Below are positions 11,411 to 23,381 of a stretch of 64,000 nucleotides of DNA, in pieces. Every line of letters begins with the position of its first letter. The stretch's first letter is position 1. A program made the position numbers and the translations under genes. The DNA is taken from positions 1,396,306-1,460,305 of the forward strand of contig NZ_CP085041.1 in the NCBI RefSeq assembly GCF_022026155.1. The letters are read 5' to 3'. The notes beneath the pieces were generated by a model that did no database searches, had not been told where the DNA came from, and saw only the letters and a list, made by a program, of their open reading frames with translations. Source of the DNA: Dissulfurimicrobium hydrothermale (GTDB taxonomy: Bacteria > Desulfobacterota > Dissulfuribacteria > Dissulfuribacterales > Sh68).

Positions 11411-11420
11411 TGGGAAATTG

Positions 11421-11855
11421 ATGGAAAGGACCTCCCTCTTCGAGACATTTGAGCACGGTGCCGACATTGGAATAAGAGGTATTGGGCCTACGCTAGAACA
11501 GGCTTTTGAAAATGGGGCAAAGGCCCTTTTTTCAATCATAGTAATTAATTTTAGTTCGATTAAACCAGTAAATATATATCAAATTTCATGTTTTTCTTTT
11601 GATCTTGAGCCGCTTTTCACCTCGTGGATTAATCAACTTTTAGCTGAGGCCGACATAAATCGGTGTATCTTTTCGGACTTTAAGATCAACCATCTCGACC
11701 TAGATAATTTCAGACTGTCTGCCCTCGCCTTTGGAGAATTTTTTGATACTAATAGGTTTGAAAGGGGTGTGGATGTCAAGGGGGCAACCTTTACTGAACT
11801 TAAAGTTTATAAGCGTGACGGGTTTTGGATAGCCCAGTGTGTGGTGGATGTATAA
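11421..11855 (+). CDS. Archease, RtcB activator
   Basis: The product is a 144-residue archease: FEHGADIGIRGIGPTLEQAFENGAKAL at the N-terminus matches the conserved 'xxHTADxgixa.g.tleeaf..aa' block. Archease speeds RtcB guanylylation and multiple turnover. I use the ATG at 11421; the longest reading adds one codon (TTG 11418). It is directly followed by rtcB, the classical arrangement. Confidence 0.92.
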   Translation: MERTSLFETFEHGADIGIRGIGPTLEQAFENGAKALFSIIVINFSSIKPVNIYQISCFSFDLEPLFTSWINQLLAEADINRCIFSDFKINHLDLDNFRLSALAFGEFFDTNRFERGVDVKGATFTELKVYKRDGFWIAQCVVDV

Positions 11856-11873
11856 AGTTGTTGGAGGCCTATC

Positions 11874-13304
11874 GTGAATATCAATAGACTGAAGCGGTTG
11901 GATGAATGCCAGTGGGAGATACCTATCTTTGATGATATGCATGTACCGGCCATAATCTATGCTGACCGTGCCCTAATCGAAGAAATGGATGAGAAGGTGT
12001 ATGACCAAATCGCCAATGTCGCCAGTCTCCCTGGCATTGTTAAGGCTGCGATAGCGATGCCTGATGCCCATTGGGGTTACGGTTTCCCGATAGGCGGTGT
12101 GGCTGCATTTGATCCTGATCAAGATGGGATCATCTCGGTAGGTGGCGTTGGTTATGATATATCCTGCGGTGTGCGAACTATGATCACTGGTCTTACACGG
12201 CAAGAGATTGCCCCTAAGATCAAGACCTTGGTAGATAAACTCTTTGAAACAGTGCCTTCCGGGGTTGGTTCGGAGGGAAAGATACGACTTTCTCCTGCTA
12301 AATTGGATGACGTACTTATCGGCGGTGCAAGGTGGGCGATAGAGCTGGGATATGGCGTGCCCGAAGATCTCGATTATATCGAGGAGCATGGGTGCATTAC
12401 AGGGGCCGATCCATCGTGCGTGTCTGAAACCGCAAAAAAACGACAATACAGGCAGGTTGGAACCTTGGGTTCCGGCAATCATTATCTTGAGATTCAATAT
12501 ATAGAGGAGATATTTCATCAACCTTCAGCGGATGCTATGGGTCTTAAAAAGAACGATGTTGTGGTGGCTATCCACTGCGGTTCCAGGGCGCTCGGTCATC
12601 AAATCGGGACTGACTACATCCAAATACTCGGCCAGGCGTCTAGAAAATATAATATACCGATAAAAGAAAGGGAGCTTGTATGCGCGCCCATAAGATCTTC
12701 TGAGGGCGAGGCATATTACAAAGCAATGGCTTGCGGGGTGAATTGCGCCCTTGCCAATCGCCAGGTCATCGGCCATCTGGTACGCCAGGTCTTTAATGAT
12801 ATCTTTTCAGGGCCTGAGGTAAAGATTCTCTATGATGTCAGCCACAACACCTGCAAGATCGAAAATCATTATGTGGACGGGGAAATAAAGCGGCTATATG
12901 TGCATAGAAAGGGTGCGACAAGGGCATTTGGACCGGGGAGAACGGAGTTGCCCGAGAAATTTAGGGGGATCGGACAGCCTGTGTTTATTGGCGGGACGAT
13001 GGGGACACATTCATATATATTGGTTGGCCAAGAAAAAGGCGAGGCCCTTGTTTGGGGTTCGGCATGCCATGGCGCTGGCCGTGCTATGAGTAGAAATGCC
13101 GCCTTAAAAAGGTGGAAAGGCAAAGATGTGATTCAACGTCTTGCGGACAAAGGCATAATAGTCCGTACAGCAAGCTATAGAGGTGCAGCGGAAGAGGCCC
13201 CTGACGCCTATAAAGACGTTTCGGCGGTTGTAGACGCCATAGACAGGGCTGGGCTTGCAAGGAAAGTTGCACGGGTGAAACCGATGGCGTGCATCAAGGG
13301 TTGA
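11874..13304 (+). CDS. rtcB: RNA-splicing ligase RtcB
   Basis: RtcB is the GTP- and Mn-dependent ligase that joins 2',3'-cyclic phosphate and 5'-OH RNA ends. The 476-residue product shows the family's metal and active-site blocks: DAHWGYGFPIGG, ISCGVRTM, GSGNHYLEIQ, HCGSRALGHQ, DVSHNTCK, and HRKGATRAFGPG containing the histidine that is guanylylated. The start is GTG with GGAGG nine bases upstream. It is paired with archease upstream. Its last 11 bases overlap the end of the convergent CobD-like gene. An rtcA gene lies at 61.5 kb in the same window. Confidence 0.97.
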   Translation: MNINRLKRLDECQWEIPIFDDMHVPAIIYADRALIEEMDEKVYDQIANVASLPGIVKAAIAMPDAHWGYGFPIGGVAAFDPDQDGIISVGGVGYDISCGVRTMITGLTRQEIAPKIKTLVDKLFETVPSGVGSEGKIRLSPAKLDDVLIGGARWAIELGYGVPEDLDYIEEHGCITGADPSCVSETAKKRQYRQVGTLGSGNHYLEIQYIEEIFHQPSADAMGLKKNDVVVAIHCGSRALGHQIGTDYIQILGQASRKYNIPIKERELVCAPIRSSEGEAYYKAMACGVNCALANRQVIGHLVRQVFNDIFSGPEVKILYDVSHNTCKIENHYVDGEIKRLYVHRKGATRAFGPGRTELPEKFRGIGQPVFIGGTMGTHSYILVGQEKGEALVWGSACHGAGRAMSRNAALKRWKGKDVIQRLADKGIIVRTASYRGAAEEAPDAYKDVSAVVDAIDRAGLARKVARVKPMACIKG

Positions 13305-14413: not shown

Positions 14414-14974
14414 TTATTTTTGGTTTCCGGCAAATGAGCGTTCAAAGAGCTGCCGGATGGCCTCGCGTCCTTTGTCGGTCAAAAACCTTGTGCCAGTCCC
14501 AGCCAATTCTTTATAAGATATTATCGGTAAGTCAGGCACCCATTCAGAGCCGTTCCAGGTAAACCAGCTGTTTTTGTCCTGATCAAATACACTTACTGGC
14601 TTATTGAAGAATTTTGCAAGCTCGACTGCCCATCCTGTCCCACCCTTGACTGTATTGTCTGGTTGTATCCAACCTACAGCGAATATCTGTTGTCCTTTAT
14701 TTACTATATGAAAGATCGACTGGATGACCTTACGGATCTTTTCCGCCTCTGCATATGTGCGGTTCATATGTCTGGATACGATTGCCATGCTTATATCGCC
14801 CTGTTTAAGCTCCTCGTCCGTAAGGATACATACGTCTTTGACCCTGTCCATGTGGTGGCCTTTGTATGAAAAATTGATCTCCCTGAGCCCCCATTTTTCG
14901 GCGTTTATCCCAAATTCAGTCTCAGCACCTTTGAGCCCTCCGCTGTATAGGATGTATTTAGATGTATCTATCAT
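14414..14974 (-). CDS. SLOG/Rossmann-like nucleotide-binding protein, function unknown
   Basis: The 186-residue soluble protein starts with YILYSGGLKGAETEFG and later has GGTGWAVELAKFFNKPVSVFD, the Gly-rich and 'GGTG.A.E.A....KPV.vfd' pattern of SLOG-type nucleotide or NAD-derivative binding proteins. I do not recognise a named family. It follows a 63-residue gene and rdgB on the same strand with short gaps, so a role in nucleotide housekeeping is possible but is inference only. Confidence 0.5.
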   Translation of the reverse strand: MIDTSKYILYSGGLKGAETEFGINAEKWGLREINFSYKGHHMDRVKDVCILTDEELKQGDISMAIVSRHMNRTYAEAEKIRKVIQSIFHIVNKGQQIFAVGWIQPDNTVKGGTGWAVELAKFFNKPVSVFDQDKNSWFTWNGSEWVPDLPIISYKELAGTGTRFLTDKGREAIRQLFERSFAGNQK

Positions 14975-14992: not shown

Positions 14993-15184
14993 TTATTGAA
15001 TTTCATCTTTTAATACGTCTGCCTTAAGCTCCAAGAGTTTTTTATATACATTTTCCAAGAATTCGGCCACCGGGCCATGTTTATTTTCCCCCGATTGGGC
15101 ATAATTCTTTGTAATCTCAACAGCCTGACGGAGACATTCTTCTTTGTCATATGTATTCAGTTTTATCTTCCCATCCTTTCCCAT
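14993..15184 (-). CDS. Small hypothetical protein, 63 aa
   Basis: I place the start at the ATG at 15184, which has AAGGA correctly spaced; longer readings run into rdgB. The charged, helical product (LRQAVEITKNY, then HGPVAEFLENVYKKLLELK) has no membrane segment and no family that I recognise. It lies 18 bases before the SLOG-like gene and 40 after rdgB, all on the minus strand. Confidence 0.6.
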   Translation of the reverse strand: MGKDGKIKLNTYDKEECLRQAVEITKNYAQSGENKHGPVAEFLENVYKKLLELKADVLKDEIQ

Positions 15185-15224
15185 CTTTATTGTCCTTTGC
15201 CGTCGGCAAGATGACATCCCACAT

Positions 15225-15848
15225 CTATGATGGGGGTGTGGTGCCGATAAATTGCGGAACATCATTTAGTTTCTTTATGAGGTCCCGCAAGGCCTTTGCC
15301 CTGTGACTCAGGGCATTCTTTTCTTTGTCTGCGATCTCCGCCATGGTGCGGTTGCCGCCGCCATAGGGGATAAAGAGCGGATCATAGCCGAATCCGTTGG
15401 CCCCTCTTAGGGTTTCAGCTATGACGCCTTCACATACACCTTCGCCTGTCATCCAGGCGCCTGATGGATGGTACAACACCACGACACACCTGAAGCGCGC
15501 CGTGCGTTTGTGGTCTCCTATGGCCTTCAGTTCCTCAAGGAGCCTTCTGTTATTCTCTTCATCGCCAGCCCCTTCTCCTGCAAACCTTGCGGAATATATC
15601 CCTGGAGCACCTCCCAGCGAATCCACTTCAAGGCCCGAGTCGTCGGCAAGCGCCGGGAGGCAGGTGGCTAACGCAACGGTTTGCGCCTTAATGAAGGCAT
15701 TCTCTTCGAAGGTTGATCCGTTTTCCACAATATCGGGGATGTCGGGAAAATCATCAAGACAAAGAAACTTGATGTCGGGTCTAGAGAATATAGCCGTGAT
15801 TTCCCGGATCTTGCCTTTATTTCTAGATGCAATGACAAGCTTTTTCAT
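15225..15848 (-). CDS. rdgB: dITP/XTP pyrophosphatase (RdgB/HAM1 family)
   Basis: The 207-residue enzyme hydrolyses non-canonical purine NTPs (dITP, XTP) to monophosphates, keeping them out of nucleic acids. It starts LVIASRNKGKIREI (the family's SxNxxK substrate loop), has TFEENAFIKA, LADDSGLEVDSLGGAPGIYSARFAGEGA with the catalytic Asp pair, and GYDPLFIP and SHRAKAL near the end. Its start overlaps the stop of the polyferredoxin gene by four bases. Confidence 0.96.
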   Translation of the reverse strand: MKKLVIASRNKGKIREITAIFSRPDIKFLCLDDFPDIPDIVENGSTFEENAFIKAQTVALATCLPALADDSGLEVDSLGGAPGIYSARFAGEGAGDEENNRRLLEELKAIGDHKRTARFRCVVVLYHPSGAWMTGEGVCEGVIAETLRGANGFGYDPLFIPYGGGNRTMAEIADKEKNALSHRAKALRDLIKKLNDVPQFIGTTPPS

Positions 15849-16750
15849 GGAGCCTTTATATCAATACCAGCCTGCTCCTTGTCCGGAGTTTTGAGGCATG
15901 GGCCAAAACTTAGCGACACTGCATTTACAGGACAGATAGAATGGCATCTCATACACCTTATACATGCGGTGGAATTTATACTGTCTTCGCCATTATAAAA
16001 CGAAATATCGCTAGGACATGCAGTTTTACATGCCCTGCAGCCCACGCATCGGCTAGGATCAAAATTGAGTTGCAGCCAGCTGATCCTGTTAAAAAGCCCA
16101 TAGATAGCGCCGAGCGGGCATATCGCCCTACAAAATGCCCGCATGGTAACCATACACCAAACCGATATTGCAATAAGGACAACGAGTTTGTTTACAAAAA
16201 GCCAGCCAGCGGCACGCCTGAGATTTGAATTGAGGGTCAGGAGCGGGATTCCGGCCTCAAGGGTGCCTGCTGGACAGACATATTTACAAAACCATGTTGA
16301 ACCATAACCCGTTGCATCGACCACAAGGATTGGAAGGACGATTACAAAGAGACCTAAAAATATATATGGTCCGGCCCTGAACCATTTCTTCATAGAGATT
16401 TTTGGAACAGGCATACGATATAAGAGTTCTTGAATAAGGCCGAAAGGGCAAAGCCAGCTACATGGTAATCTACCCATTATGCTGCCTATTAGGGCAAGGG
16501 TCCCTAATACATAGGCGCCGAAACGCATTCCTACAGGGGTTATGTTTATACGTATGCTGGCAAGAAAATTCTGAAGCCCCCCGATCGGACAAGCTGTGAT
16601 TGCTGCAGGGCATGAATAGCAGTTAAGGCCTGGTGAACATATCCTTTTTGACCACCCTTGAAATATAGGGGGCCCTTTCCACAAAAAGGTCCAGTTGGAA
16701 TTGATTATTAACGTAGATATTATTTGCGAGACCTTTCTTCGCCGTTCCAT
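15845..16750 (-). CDS. NapH/polyferredoxin-like 4Fe-4S membrane protein
   Basis: This is a 301-residue inner-membrane protein with about four membrane helices. It has the Cys-Pro pairs CPIGG, CSWLCPFG, CKYVCPAG and CRAICPLG of the NapH/NosR/RnfE-like family, followed by a C-terminal ferredoxin domain with two clusters, CVGCRACKTACP and CIRCMRCHSICP. Such proteins move electrons between quinone or ferredoxin and periplasmic partners. Its start codon overlaps the stop of a 45-residue CXXC protein, so the two are coupled and probably partners. Confidence 0.85.
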   Translation of the reverse strand: MERRRKVSQIISTLIINSNWTFLWKGPPIFQGWSKRICSPGLNCYSCPAAITACPIGGLQNFLASIRINITPVGMRFGAYVLGTLALIGSIMGRLPCSWLCPFGLIQELLYRMPVPKISMKKWFRAGPYIFLGLFVIVLPILVVDATGYGSTWFCKYVCPAGTLEAGIPLLTLNSNLRRAAGWLFVNKLVVLIAISVWCMVTMRAFCRAICPLGAIYGLFNRISWLQLNFDPSRCVGCRACKTACPSDISFYNGEDSINSTACIRCMRCHSICPVNAVSLSFGPCLKTPDKEQAGIDIKAP

Positions 16751-16887
16751 TATCCAATGCCTATGCAGCTAAGACAGACGGTCACAGCCTTTTGCCAGAG
16801 AATCTGGGCCTCGCCGGACCATAAACCTAGGGCGATCAGGCCAAGCGAACTTATAAGCGCGATTAACGGTGTATATCTAAATATCAT
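16750..16887 (-). CDS. CD1871A family CXXC-motif protein, 45 aa
   Basis: I read this by hand because it is short. One hydrophobic helix (about residues 8-21) is followed by GLWSGEAQILWQKAVTVCLS and ends CIGIG, giving the C-x2-C end that marks the CD1871A family. The ATG is preceded by AGGGGGG with good spacing. It overlaps the thiamine-binding gene upstream by 11 bases and the polyferredoxin gene downstream as TAATG. Members are known next to 4Fe-4S membrane proteins, which is what is seen here. A role as a small membrane thiol or electron carrier is inferred. Confidence 0.8.
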   Translation of the reverse strand: MIFRYTPLIALISSLGLIALGLWSGEAQILWQKAVTVCLSCIGIG

Positions 16888-17209
16888 ATTTTAGTCCCCC
16901 CTTGTCCTCTTCGGCAAGATACTGCCTGACGGTGCTGGTCTTTTGACCAAGATGGACTTCCTTATCGCGCCGGTCGTCTATTTTAATTGCGGTATATACC
17001 CGCTTTTCCCCCATGGAAAACGGTACATTGTGCAGTATCTTTGCAGTTGACATAAGGGTGTCGATGTCGCCTTCCACAAGTGTCCCCATGTCGGTAAGTT
17101 TATATGGAAGCCCGAGACCTGCAAGGACTTCCTGCATCTTGACTACAAAGCGGTGAAAGCTTGTGGAACCTGTCCCGAGAGGGACTACACTTATCTCCAT
17201 TATAGCCAT
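16877..17209 (-). CDS. MTH1187/YkoF-like thiamine-binding protein
   Basis: The 110-residue protein starts MAIMEISVVPLGTGSTSFHRFV and has KLTDMGTLVEGDIDTLM and the late DRRDKEVHLGQKTSTVRQYL, the pattern of the MTH1187 (DUF77) family of small ferredoxin-fold proteins, some of which bind thiamine. The start at 17209 has GGGGGTGG just before it. It is the first gene of the tightly overlapping set leading to the CXXC protein and polyferredoxin. Binding of thiamine here is from family knowledge only. Confidence 0.82.
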   Translation of the reverse strand: MAIMEISVVPLGTGSTSFHRFVVKMQEVLAGLGLPYKLTDMGTLVEGDIDTLMSTAKILHNVPFSMGEKRVYTAIKIDDRRDKEVHLGQKTSTVRQYLAEEDKGGLKYDI

Positions 17210-17288: not shown

Positions 17289-17364
17289 TGGAGGCGGCGC
17301 CCGGACTTGAACCGGGGAATAACGGTTTTGCAGACCGTCGCCTTAGCCACTTGGCTACGCCGCC
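17289..17364 (-). tRNA. tRNA-Cys (GCA)
   Basis: On the minus strand a complete cloverleaf is seen with the acceptor GGCGGCG/CGCCGCC, anticodon loop CTGCAAA (anticodon GCA), GGTTCAAGTCC T arm and an encoded CCA end at 17291-17289. Confidence 0.95.
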
Positions 17365-19492: not shown

Positions 19493-19987
19493 ATGGCTCG
19501 AGTAGAATATGGAAGCATAGTCGTAATTGAATACCGTGTAAGGCTTGCCACTGGTCAGATAGTCGATTCTTCTGAAAAATCAGGCGGACCTGTAAAGTTT
19601 TTATGTGGACAGAGTGATTTTCCAAGGCCTGTGGAAGAAGGATTGATCGGCCTTGCACCTGGTGAGGATAAAGTAATAGCTGTGGCGCCTTTGTTCGGCT
19701 ATGGTTATTATGACCCAAAAAAGGTATATCTAGTCGCAACCGAACGTATTTTTGAAGAGATTGAGACAGGCAAGGTTATAAAGGTCCCTGACGAGTTCGG
19801 TATTAGAAGGGCTGCATTGGTGCGGTCTGTCTTGCAAGGGGCTGTGCTTGTGGATTTTAATCATCCACTTGCTGGGAAAACCCTCTATTTTGAGGTTAAA
19901 GTAAAGGATGTCTTTTATCCTGACCCGCAAAATAACAATAAAGGGGTATTCGCCAATGGAAACGGCATTGAAGAAGGCAGGGCTTAG
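19493..19987 (+). CDS. FKBP-type (SlyD-like) peptidyl-prolyl isomerase
   Basis: The 164-residue protein has the FKBP/SlyD arrangement: YRVRLATGQIVDSSEKSGGP, the inserted flap region, EEGLIGLAPGEDKVIAVAP, and the closing FNHPLAGKTLYFEVKVKDV. It lacks the His-rich metal-binding tail of E. coli SlyD. The ATG at 19493 with upstream GAGG is preferred over a GTG at 19445. Its last 32 bases overlap mqnE, so it is translated as part of the menaquinone operon; why a folding catalyst heads this operon is not known. Confidence 0.88.
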   Translation: MARVEYGSIVVIEYRVRLATGQIVDSSEKSGGPVKFLCGQSDFPRPVEEGLIGLAPGEDKVIAVAPLFGYGYYDPKKVYLVATERIFEEIETGKVIKVPDEFGIRRAALVRSVLQGAVLVDFNHPLAGKTLYFEVKVKDVFYPDPQNNNKGVFANGNGIEEGRA

Positions 19988-21041
19988 TGCGATATATGAA
20001 AAAATTATTTCAAATCAACGTCTTGATGCCTATGATGCCAAAAGGCTTTACGAGATCAATAATCTGCCGCTTCTTGGTTATTTGGCAAATATCGTCCGAG
20101 AGAGACTGAACGGCGATAAAACCTATTATATCTATAATCAGCATATAAATTACTCAAATATTTGTATAAATCTGTGTAAATTCTGCGCCTTTGGCAAGAA
20201 AAAGGGGGCACACGCAGCCTATGAGATGACCATTGGCGAGATAGTATCCAAGATTGAGGAACGGTTGAGCGAACCTGTCAGAGAGGTCCATATCGTCGGC
20301 GGAGTTCATCCTGATCTCCCTTATGAATATTATATTGATATGCTAAAGGCCATAAAGGCCGTTCGTCCAGATATACATATACAGGCATTCACCTGCGTAG
20401 AGATTGCCCATATTGCAAGGATGGGCGGAAAGTCTATAGAAGACGCCATCTCTGATCTTATTGCGGCAGGACTTGGCTCTATGCCCGGCGGAGGGGCTGA
20501 GATATTTAGCCCCAGGATACGTGAGCGTCTCTGTCCAAACAAGCTCTCCGGCGAGAGCTGGCTTGAGGTTGCAAAGACAGCGCATAGGCTCGGGCTGAAG
20601 ACTAATGCAACCATGCTTTACGGGCACATTGAGACCCTGGATGAGCGTATAGACCACCTGATGGCGCTGAGAGACGCCCAAGACGAGACAGGCGGATTCA
20701 TGTGCTTTATACCCCTTGCCTTTCATCCAAAAAATACTGAGCTCAACGGTGTTTCCATAACTGGCGGGGTCGAGGATTTGAAGATGATAGCCCTTTCAAG
20801 GCTCATGCTTGACAATTTTCCTCATATAAAGGCCTATTGGGTGATGTTAGGGCCGAAGATAGCGCAGATAGCCCTTTCCTTTGGGGCTGATGACTTAGAT
20901 GGTACGGTGATGGAGGAGAAGATCGCCCATATGGCAGGTGGTGAGACCTCTCAAGCCATGACAAGAAAAGAGATTGAAGACTTGATAAAACAAGCAGGCC
21001 GTATACCTATCGAAAGGGATACACTCTACCGACCTGTATGA
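19956..21041 (+). CDS. mqnE: Aminofutalosine synthase
   Basis: MqnE is a radical-SAM enzyme that joins the MqnA product 3-(1-carboxyvinyl)oxybenzoate with SAM to make 6-amino-6-deoxyfutalosine. The 361-residue product has the cluster motif CINLCKFC (C-x3-C-x2-C) in NYSNICINLCKFCAFGKKKG, GGVHPDLPYEYY and GGGAEIFSPRIRE. The shift from MqnC is shown by the 'AFGKKKG' context after the cluster. The start at 19956 follows AAAGGGG. Its stop overlaps mqnC by four bases. Confidence 0.93.
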   Translation: METALKKAGLSAIYEKIISNQRLDAYDAKRLYEINNLPLLGYLANIVRERLNGDKTYYIYNQHINYSNICINLCKFCAFGKKKGAHAAYEMTIGEIVSKIEERLSEPVREVHIVGGVHPDLPYEYYIDMLKAIKAVRPDIHIQAFTCVEIAHIARMGGKSIEDAISDLIAAGLGSMPGGGAEIFSPRIRERLCPNKLSGESWLEVAKTAHRLGLKTNATMLYGHIETLDERIDHLMALRDAQDETGGFMCFIPLAFHPKNTELNGVSITGGVEDLKMIALSRLMLDNFPHIKAYWVMLGPKIAQIALSFGADDLDGTVMEEKIAHMAGGETSQAMTRKEIEDLIKQAGRIPIERDTLYRPV

Positions 21042-22108
21042 AGGCGACCATACAAGACATCTTTCGAAAAGTTAGGGATCGGCAGAGGATAACTGGTGAC
21101 GAAGCCGTTTTTCTTTATGAAAATGCCGATCTCCTGACCCTAGGTATGTTTGCGGACGAAATAAGGCACTTTCTGCACCCCGAACCTGTCGTAACATATG
21201 TGATAGATAGAAACATTAACTATACGAATGTCTGCATATCGGGCTGCAAGTTCTGTGCTTACTTTCGGGCGCCAGGGGATAGTGCCGGCTATGTGCTCTC
21301 AAAAAGAGAACTGGGCCAAAAGATAGAAGAGACTAAGGCCCTGGGTGGCACCCAGATACTTCTTCAGGGTGGACTTCACCCTGATTTGCCGTTGTCTTTC
21401 TATGAAGACATGCTCTCTTTCATAAAAGGTTTCGATATACACTGCCATGCATTTTCGCCGCCAGAGATCATCCATCTTGCCAGGCTTTCGGGTCTTTCTG
21501 TAGCCGAGGTACTTCTTAGACTCAAAGCAGCAGGTCTTGATTCCATACCTGGTGGAGGCGCAGAGATACTTTCTGACAGGGTAAGGAATATTGTATCTCC
21601 AAAAAAGGCTGGCACAGACGAGTGGCTGGGTGTAATGGAGACGGCTCATAGGCTCGGGATTAGAACCACCGCAACTATGATGTTCGGTCACATCGAGACT
21701 ATAGAGGAGCGGATTGTCCACCTTATGCGTCTTCGTGAACTTCAGGACCGCACCGGTGGATTTACTGCCTTTATTCCATGGCCATTTCAGCCAAAAAACA
21801 CCGCCCTCAGTGTTAAGGCCGCAACAGCCCATGAATATTTAAAGCTCCTTGCCATCTCACGGATAGTCCTGGACAATTTTGCAAACCTTCAGGCCTCTTG
21901 GGTGACTCAGGGGCCAAAGGTAGCACAGATAGCCCTATCCTTCGGTGCCAATGATTTTGGTAGCACGATGATAGAAGAAAACGTAGTGGCCGCAACAGGG
22001 GTAACTCATAAGCTGTCTGAAGATGAGATAAGGAGACTCATCGTAGAAGCTGGGTTTTTGCCCAAACAGCGTCTTATGGATTATAGATTTGCGGAAAAAT
22101 CCAGATAG
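21038..22108 (+). CDS. mqnC: Cyclic dehypoxanthinyl futalosine synthase
   Basis: MqnC is the radical-SAM enzyme that cyclises dehypoxanthine futalosine in the alternative menaquinone pathway. The 356-residue product carries CISGCKFC in IDRNINYTNVCISGCKFCAYFRAPG, QGGLHPDLPLSFYEDML, SIPGGGAEIL and a GHIETIEERIVHL block. It is a paralog of the preceding mqnE, with which it overlaps by ATGA. The downstream deaminase gene starts 19 bases after its stop when read from the ATG at 22128. Confidence 0.94.
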   Translation: MKATIQDIFRKVRDRQRITGDEAVFLYENADLLTLGMFADEIRHFLHPEPVVTYVIDRNINYTNVCISGCKFCAYFRAPGDSAGYVLSKRELGQKIEETKALGGTQILLQGGLHPDLPLSFYEDMLSFIKGFDIHCHAFSPPEIIHLARLSGLSVAEVLLRLKAAGLDSIPGGGAEILSDRVRNIVSPKKAGTDEWLGVMETAHRLGIRTTATMMFGHIETIEERIVHLMRLRELQDRTGGFTAFIPWPFQPKNTALSVKAATAHEYLKLLAISRIVLDNFANLQASWVTQGPKVAQIALSFGANDFGSTMIEENVVAATGVTHKLSEDEIRRLIVEAGFLPKQRLMDYRFAEKSR

Positions 22109-22127
22109 ATATCCTTTAAATGAAGAT

Positions 22128-23381
22128 ATGAGCCGAATGAAGAGATTGGATAATAGAGAGACCTTACGCATCCATAGAGCCAGATGGGTGGTACCGGTAT
22201 CGTGTCCGCCTATTTCAAACGGCGCGGTTGTGACCTTTGGCGGGAAGATAATCGAGGTAGGCGAGATAAATAAAATAGCCCTTCGCTTTCACGGTACGAT
22301 CTTGGATCATGGGGATGTGATACTCTGTCCTAGGCTCATAAATGTGCACTCGCACATGGAGCTTGCTCCTTTGAAATATCGCCTTGAGCCCAGTGGTTCT
22401 TTCACTGGTTGGATACGGGCTGTTATCAAGGCGCGCAGCAATATCAATGCCGATGAGTTTAGGCCAGCGGTCGAGGCAGCCATAAATGAGATGACCTCAG
22501 GCGGGATAGTGGCGGTTGGAGATATCGGCAATACAGAGCTTATCCCTGAAATCGTCCTGCAGAACATGGGGCCAGGCATAAGGGGTATCTTTTTTAAAGA
22601 GATAATATGTCAGCAAAACGATCCAAGACCATTGGTAAATGACTGGATCAGTTTTACGGCTATGACGTCCGGCTGCTTTCATTTTACAGTTGCGGCGCAT
22701 GCACCTTATACAGTGTCTCCGCAGGCGATAAAGGTCATAAAGTCGATAAGTCGATTGAGAAAAAGGCCTTTTTCTATACATGTCGCAGAATCGTCAGATG
22801 AGATAGAGTTTTTGGCTGGCGGCAATGGTCCATTGAGAGAGCTACTTGAAGAAAGGGGGTGCTGGCTGCCTTTTTATGACATTCCCAAGGCTAGCCCTGT
22901 ATCATATCTTTCATCTCTAAATGTGCTTGACAAGGATACGATATGTGTTCACTGCGTACATTTGAGTGATGACGATATAGACATATTGGCAAGGGGTGGT
23001 GCTACTGCCTGTCTGTGTCCTAGAAGCAATTTTTTTTTAGGTGTAGGCATTCCGCCTGCCGAAAAACTGGTAAAGGCCGGCGTACCGATCGTCCTTGGAA
23101 CGGATAGCCTTGCAAGTAATGACAGGCTGTCCATATTTTCAGAAATGGCAAGCCTTGCGCGCATTGCGCCAGGACTTTCGACCGAGATAATTTTTAAGGC
23201 CGCAACCCATGGCGGCGCAAGGGCGCTTGGCATTGGTGAGGACCTGGGTGCACTTTCAGAGGGAAAGATTGCAGCATTTCTTGCCGTCAATGCCCCAAAT
23301 ATAATAGAAAGTGATATATATGATTTTCTGACAATGGGTTGTGAAGGTCCTGAAGTGAGGTGTCATCTGATCAATGGCTGA
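22128..23381 (+). CDS. Aminodeoxyfutalosine deaminase (amidohydrolase)
   Basis: This 417-residue metal-dependent amidohydrolase shows HSHMELAP (first metal HxH), HVAE, CVHCVHLSDDDID and GTDSLASNDRLS, as in the deaminases that turn aminodeoxyfutalosine into futalosine. The longest frame begins at TTG 22089 inside mqnC; I prefer the ATG at 22128, though its ribosome site is weak. Its position between mqnC and mqnA supports this role over other amidohydrolases. In this branch MqnB is still needed to remove hypoxanthine, but it is not seen here. Confidence 0.85.
   Translation: MSRMKRLDNRETLRIHRARWVVPVSCPPISNGAVVTFGGKIIEVGEINKIALRFHGTILDHGDVILCPRLINVHSHMELAPLKYRLEPSGSFTGWIRAVIKARSNINADEFRPAVEAAINEMTSGGIVAVGDIGNTELIPEIVLQNMGPGIRGIFFKEIICQQNDPRPLVNDWISFTAMTSGCFHFTVAAHAPYTVSPQAIKVIKSISRLRKRPFSIHVAESSDEIEFLAGGNGPLRELLEERGCWLPFYDIPKASPVSYLSSLNVLDKDTICVHCVHLSDDDIDILARGGATACLCPRSNFFLGVGIPPAEKLVKAGVPIVLGTDSLASNDRLSIFSEMASLARIAPGLSTEIIFKAATHGGARALGIGEDLGALSEGKIAAFLAVNAPNIIESDIYDFLTMGCEGPEVRCHLING

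Follow-up and report, generated by a model that had tools for sequence, protein, structure and literature searches.

What could a membrane peptide of 45 residues, ending in a CXXC motif and encoded between an MTH1187-family protein and a membrane polyferredoxin, be doing in Dissulfurimicrobium hydrothermale? The original prediction had read these three overlapping genes as a compact redox cassette with a thiamine-binding protein as one of its parts. Our analysis of the window (the whole stretch of 64,000 nucleotides presented above) and of related loci leads to another reading, to which we assign a probability of roughly 0.6: the peptide and the polyferredoxin would together act as an Fe-S wire across the membrane, and the CXXC tail of the peptide would pass the electrons on to, and so reduce, an extracytoplasmic thioredoxin of the TlpA/ResA type.

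The genes concerned and their upstream neighbor are the following:

16877..17209, minus strand: MTH1187-family protein (PF01910, TIGR00106)
16750..16887, minus strand: CD1871A-family peptide of 45 aa, 45 codons (NF040920)
15845..16750, minus strand: NapH-like membrane polyferredoxin of 301 aa, hereafter FER (Pfam Fer4_5 in three stretches, plus Fer4)
15225..15848, minus strand: RdgB/HAM1 XTP/dITP diphosphatase (NF011397, 247 bits)
17289..17364, minus strand: tRNA-Cys, just upstream of the operon

The three frames first described are indeed present and overlap as claimed, all of them on the minus strand: the MTH1187 frame runs to 16877, past the start of the peptide at 16887 (an 11-base overlap), and the stop codon of the peptide (16752-16750) has one base in common with the ATG of FER at 16750, forming a TAATG junction. 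A further overlap of 4 bases (15848-15845), absent from the original prediction, was found between the FER stop and the rdgB ATG; each gene of the chain MTH1187, peptide, FER, rdgB overlaps the next. The peptide is a genuine CD1871A protein, as it scored 49.2 bits against NF040920, the curated NCBI model for this family (cut-off 32), and ends at its stop codon in CLSCIGIG, with the C-terminal CXXC by which the family is recognized. The MTH1187 protein also passed the cut-offs of its models (82.9 bits against 54.7 for TIGR00106, and 97.8 against 24.9 for PF01910). Judged by sequence motifs, FER carries an N-terminal four-Cys motif, three CX3CP pairs and two [4Fe-4S] ferredoxin motifs; its predicted transmembrane helices, CX3CP and two C-terminal [4Fe-4S] motifs agree with the description of the NapH/MauN proteins, with a score against TIGR02163 (59.3 bits) below the cut-off of 213.05. 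No Pfam match to the DsbD transmembrane domain (PF02683, PF13386) was found in FER or in the peptide up to an E-value of 1. The host genome, a single contig of 2,025,450 bases estimated to be 99.95% complete, contains one NF040920 match over the cut-off, and its second-best FER-like match reached 59 bits versus 493. The Rfam search of the window at gathering thresholds returned three tRNAs and nothing else, and therefore no TPP riboswitch.

Other genes were noted in the window. Downstream of rdgB, the minus strand encodes a 186-aa protein (14414-14974) with no Pfam match, relatives of which (70–81% identical) lie near FER in five of the 80 wider loci introduced below (the best 80 of 556 candidates), and a 90-aa frame (14993-15265) of no confident family. 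On the plus strand, positions 19908-23381 hold a run of menaquinone genes of the futalosine pathway: MqnE (TIGR03700, 502 bits), MqnC (TIGR03699, 500 bits), and an aminofutalosine-deaminase-like amidohydrolase below its model cut-off. Also on the plus strand (11418-13304), a match to PRK00407 (109.8 bits, cut-off 126), which we take to be the archease model, directly precedes an RtcB-like protein of 476 aa; the best model for the latter, an intein-containing RtcB family of 961 positions, scored below its cut-off.

The peptide proved to be widespread in the order of the window. NF040920 was matched over the cut-off in 40 of 60 genomes, its own included, and at E <= 0.001 in 42, all except one from this order; in 14 control genomes, no match over the cut-off was found, with weak matches at E <= 10 in four of them. 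Compared with 19 relatives, the window peptide showed 38–67% identity and an almost invariant C-terminus, with G21, A34, C38, C41, and G43 invariant across the 20 aligned sequences and both cysteines kept in all 20, a set chosen by profile match. We then compared 30 order loci, each spanning at most ~3 kb and some cut by contig ends (L001, the window's own, and L004-L032). Profile searches found FER in 29 of them and MTH1187 in 24, and RdgB followed FER in 25 (tblastn). The locus lacking FER, L024, retains only about 190 bases past the peptide. FER without MTH1187 was found in five order loci (L005, L011, L014, L018, and L019), two of which, L014 and L018, have by eye an unrelated hydrophobic frame of about 490 aa upstream in its stead. 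The TlpA profile gave no match in any of the 30 loci within these lengths. Thus, when checked for a frame lacking conservation or for neighbors varying at random, the peptide turned out to be conserved at the protein level with FER beside it in nearly every locus, which upholds the claimed coupling of a CD1871A peptide to a 4Fe-4S membrane protein, apparently as a redox module.

Scanning genomes with the FER alignment extended the comparison to several phyla, including Thermodesulfobacteriota, Acidobacteriota, Aminicenantes, Clostridia, and treponemes, among others; of 556 confirmed candidates, the best 80 were taken as the wider loci to which all the following counts out of 80 refer. In 79 of these best 80 of 556, the peptide adjoins FER or is joined to it in one protein: it lies just upstream in 76 (in L050 as a mere fragment at a contig edge), downstream of FER in both L046 and L069, and within the same protein in L081, three loci from which it had wrongly been considered missing. 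The L111 locus begins at the FER gene, at a contig edge, and no NF040920 match was found in its genome. The usual third partner, overlooked in the original prediction, is a TlpA/ResA thioredoxin: 60 of the best 80 carry a TlpA frame within 337 bases of FER, in the same orientation, as counted with a profile derived from these same loci, and the eight TlpA-type proteins scanned with Pfam were all Redoxin/AhpC-TSA proteins. MTH1187 was detected in 10 of the 80, never together with TlpA, and neither of the two was nearby in the other 10, at least two of which are at contig edges. The conserved unit across several phyla is therefore the pair of peptide and polyferredoxin, and MTH1187 is a lineage add-on or local neighbor outside this conserved core. 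RdgB is a probable passenger of the operon, and we take both MTH1187 and RdgB to be passengers or lineage-specific helpers. In four clostridial loci (L053, L059, L078, and L112), the TlpA-peptide-FER genes appear amid two-component-system-like and ABC-transporter-like frames, as labeled by eye, surroundings that presumably resemble an antimicrobial-peptide-sensing cassette.

Where the cysteines lie with respect to the membrane bears on how the pair could work. The window peptide has one transmembrane helix (residues 7-25), with a net charge of +1 before it and 0 after it. In a set of 69 peptides, taken from L033-L112 and L139-L147 as frames of 50–199 codons, net charge averaged +2.4 before the helix and -0.2 after it, with 65 peptides more positive before it, four tied, and none reversed; given this N-in/C-out bias, the CXXC is predicted to be outside. 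For FER, hydropathy and charge predict an inner location for the ferredoxin domain and the pairs C97/C101 and C207/C211, and an outer one for C155/C159. The N-terminal four-Cys site (C38/44/47/54) is probably outside as well, depending on whether the first ~20 residues cross the membrane. Eighteen cysteines are invariant in the 82 aligned FER sequences of alignment A5, composed of the window FER and 81 of 88 FER stretches. Six of the seven omitted FERs (L061, L090, L092, L096, L099, and L107) keep all Cys motifs. The exception, L145, has its FER match in a frame of only 139 codons, the N-terminal motif being in a different frame, and as it is split over two frames, this gene looks broken or misassembled. 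Free peptides were left out of A5; alignment A4, combining them with the FER-peptide fusions, misplaced the peptides. A count of both cysteines in 68 of 68 peptide tails was discarded, as the tails had been selected by that very motif.

Proteins in which FER carries the peptide at its C-terminus through a transmembrane segment were found in four genomes (L081, L139, L140, and L141, the genome of the latter scoring slightly below the NF040920 cut-off), with the transmembrane segment checked in L081 and L140 and the C-terminus of the L140 protein passing the cut-off (32.4 against 32). The AlphaFold2 model of the L140 fusion reached a pLDDT of 91.3 and a pTM of 0.87, with a looser tail end (residues 311-320 at pLDDT 71, the last residue at 51); the model of the window FER, built from 16 rows, had a pLDDT of 57 and was discarded. 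Comparison with the PDB by Foldseek and VIA-align gave no confident match, the better-ranked rows being ferredoxin domains (E >= 0.27, Z <= 2.4), and no solved relative of the FER membrane part was among the matches. An alternative keeps the same module and the same direction of flow, but the CXXC of the peptide would be a cluster ligand, for instance in one site with C155/C159 at the outer face, and FER itself would reduce TlpA. The peptide CXXC and this FER cysteine pair are conserved and on the same predicted side, and FER has three CX3CP pairs, in contrast to the two of NapH, NosR, and RdhC in the passages available on them. However, the tail end is modeled with the lowest confidence, a free C-terminal CXXC suits thiol exchange as well, and any structural argument here is weak because AlphaFold2 holds no metals. 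We consider this alternative unlikely, and prefer the CXXC as a thiol relay.

The link to TlpA itself was also found within single proteins. In a second order, with NF040920 matches in 36 of 295 genomes, we inspected the five loci in which the peptide lies inside a frame of at least 255 residues (L189-L193). In all five, a hydrophobic helix connects FER to a TlpA domain that follows it in the same protein, and the two of these fusions scanned with Pfam matched Fer4_5 and Redoxin. The peptide of these loci forms the C-terminal tail (the last ~40 residues) of an upstream multi-TM protein of 255–320 residues, two of which were scanned without any Pfam match. Examples of this protein ending in a CD1871A peptide are

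L189:1144-2103
L192:1241-2032

FER is therefore tied by natural fusion both to the peptide and to TlpA. That the module serves another extracytoplasmic acceptor, such as a metal or a respiratory enzyme, with the TlpA neighborhood being secondary, is improbable in view of these FER-TlpA fusions in five genomes and of the closeness of TlpA in the wider loci of several phyla, even considering that 20 of the best 80 of 556 have no TlpA nearby and that diverse acceptors are served by NapH-like proteins according to the available passages of PMC8238504.

If the module reduces TlpA, its distribution relative to the DsbD/CcdA proteins is of interest. In the order around the L081 genome, NF040920 matches were found in 71 of 295 genomes, 67 of them over the cut-off, and PF02683 (E <= 0.001) was matched in 12 of these 71 peptide genomes versus 121 of the 224 without the peptide (odds ratio 0.17, Fisher p 2.3e-8, uncorrected for relatedness); the 12 include two of the four genomes with sub-cut-off peptide matches (G100 and G179). 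For the second order, the corresponding figures were 4 of 36 and 93 of 259 (odds ratio 0.22, p 0.0022, again uncorrected for relatedness). The exclusion is not strict, since 23 of 57 module genomes have a PF02683 match; the distribution of the module and DsbD/CcdA is thus complementary, though not strictly so, in the two orders sampled. In the window's order, the search for DsbD/CcdA covered module-bearing genomes. Of the 26 selected from the 60 (25 of the window's order, its own included, and G057 of the phylum), 15 lacked both PF02683 and PF13386 and 11 had one or the other; ResB was present in all 26 and TlpA at E <= 1.5e-29 in 23.

The genome of the window itself encodes a ResA-like TlpA, ResB, and CcsB, and has no PF02683 match. 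Neither of its two TlpA-profile matches lies in the window; they are at 579 kb and 1267 kb. The first is a 173-aa protein with the motif WATYCPPC, whose best NCBIfam model is ResA, below the ResA cut-off, and which lies ~3.6 kb from ccsB (TIGR03144, 260 bits, over the cut-off); a second CcsA-like frame adjoins ResB. To state that this genome lacks any CcdA would be too strong, as it has one PF13386 protein, its only DsbD-fold match, which is an ArsG-family equivalog. This protein adjoins an ACR3 arsenite exporter (L187:3388-6254, at about 2.00 Mb of the same genome).

The opposite direction of flow, from extracytoplasmic thiols to quinone or ferredoxin as in a DsbB-like oxidase, appears highly improbable to us: the module tends to occur where the reducing DsbD/CcdA is missing, and ResA/TlpA-type partners are reductants in the characterized systems. 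In its favor, the direction is not fixed by our results, and NapH-like proteins are linked to both reductases and oxidases in the available passages of PMC8238504. Finally, despite the tight overlap of MTH1187 with the peptide and its frequency in the order loci, we find it scarcely tenable that this protein contributes to the work of a redox cassette linked to thiamine. Thiamine was dropped from the core because Rfam detected only tRNAs, with no TPP riboswitch, and because no MTH1187 was detected in 70 of the 80 wider loci (the best of 556); in the order loci L014 and L018, the unrelated hydrophobic frame takes the place of MTH1187. From the redox cassette originally predicted, the coupling of the peptide to the 4Fe-4S protein thus survives, and the putative thiamine-binding protein, frequent in its own order (24/30) but not in the wider loci (10/80, best 80 of 556), falls out as a general part.

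From the fusions and the distribution, we infer that the module reduces an extracytoplasmic thioredoxin-fold protein. In the mechanism we propose for this transmembrane wire, whose cluster content, electron direction, donor, and use of the CXXC as a thiol relay are all putative, the peptide and FER would act as one membrane unit carrying electrons from the cytoplasmic side, from reduced ferredoxin or quinol, across the membrane. The electrons would pass first from the C-terminal ferredoxin clusters of FER, on the inside, to the CX3CP sites C97/C101 and C207/C211 at the inner face, then to C38/44/47/54 and C155/C159 at the outer face, from there to the free C-terminal CXXC of the peptide and on to TlpA, which would reduce oxidized thiols outside. 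For the organism of the window, the final acceptor would most plausibly be apocytochrome c for the System II machinery. The module would hence stand in for CcdA/DsbD, using iron-sulfur sites rather than a cysteine-pair shuttle. The extra clusters of FER are uncertain because the iron found in NosR accounts for no more than two clusters and disulfides are favored for its CX3CP pairs, a chemistry left open in the available passages of that work (PMC5928378).

Among known systems, the NapH/MauN, NosR, and RdhC proteins share with FER a membrane module with CX3CP, and NapH and NosR also the two C-terminal [4Fe-4S] motifs, as far as the passages available on them describe. FER differs from them in its third CX3CP and N-terminal four-Cys motif, in having no FMN-binding domain among its Pfam matches, and, with respect to NapH-type proteins, in its additional cysteines predicted at the outer face and in its CXXC peptide partner, found in 79 of the best 80 of 556 loci. 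The job proposed here is like that of CcdA/DsbD, the reduction of extracytoplasmic thioredoxin-fold proteins (TlpA/ResA), but the module has no DsbD-family match, relies on an iron-sulfur protein rather than on a cysteine-pair shuttle, and tends to occur in different genomes. The coupling of one-electron Fe-S chemistry to two-electron disulfide chemistry that it would need is that of ferredoxin:thioredoxin reductase (FTR), which is a soluble enzyme, whereas the module is membrane-bound and would face the outside.

Flavinylated NapH-like systems have been described (PMC8238504), and the available passages of that work and of PMC5928378 do not describe the combination of peptide and FER. In openly licensed PMC text, we found no mention of "CD1871A", nothing on polyferredoxin, TlpA, and thioredoxin together, and nothing on a CXXC motif-containing protein with a 4Fe-4S binding protein. 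The same three gene types were reported in a 2025 preprint as an operon of gut Clostridia, with the CxxC gene between TlpA and the 4Fe-4S gene in all instances except one, and with an abundance linked to immune-related adverse events (PMC12637426); its available passages give no mechanism, fusions, topology, or relation to DsbD. The window shares with that operon a CxxC peptide adjoining a 4Fe-4S membrane protein, and differs from it in having no TlpA in the locus and in belonging to another phylum. As this type of operon is a reported marker of immunotherapy toxicity, in the terms of the passages available, knowing its role would help to judge the marker (PMC12637426).

In conclusion, many of the genomes sampled have a TlpA/ResA protein without a recognized shuttle of the DsbD/CcdA type, and the peptide/FER pair with its outside thioredoxin suggests an unrecognized route by which reducing power is sent out of the cell. 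Extracytoplasmic thiol reduction is usually ascribed to shuttles of the DsbD/CcdA/ScsB type. Tentatively, and with slightly less than even confidence, we propose that the module represents a further class of transmembrane thiol-reductant carriers, with FTR-like chemistry in the membrane, that takes the place of CcdA/DsbD in many anaerobes and supplies System II cytochrome c maturation in the order of the window. If the module does serve the genomes lacking a recognized shuttle, electrons for thiols outside the membrane would come from the ferredoxin or quinol pool, and a testable job could be given to CD1871A, a curated family with a name that is silent on function.
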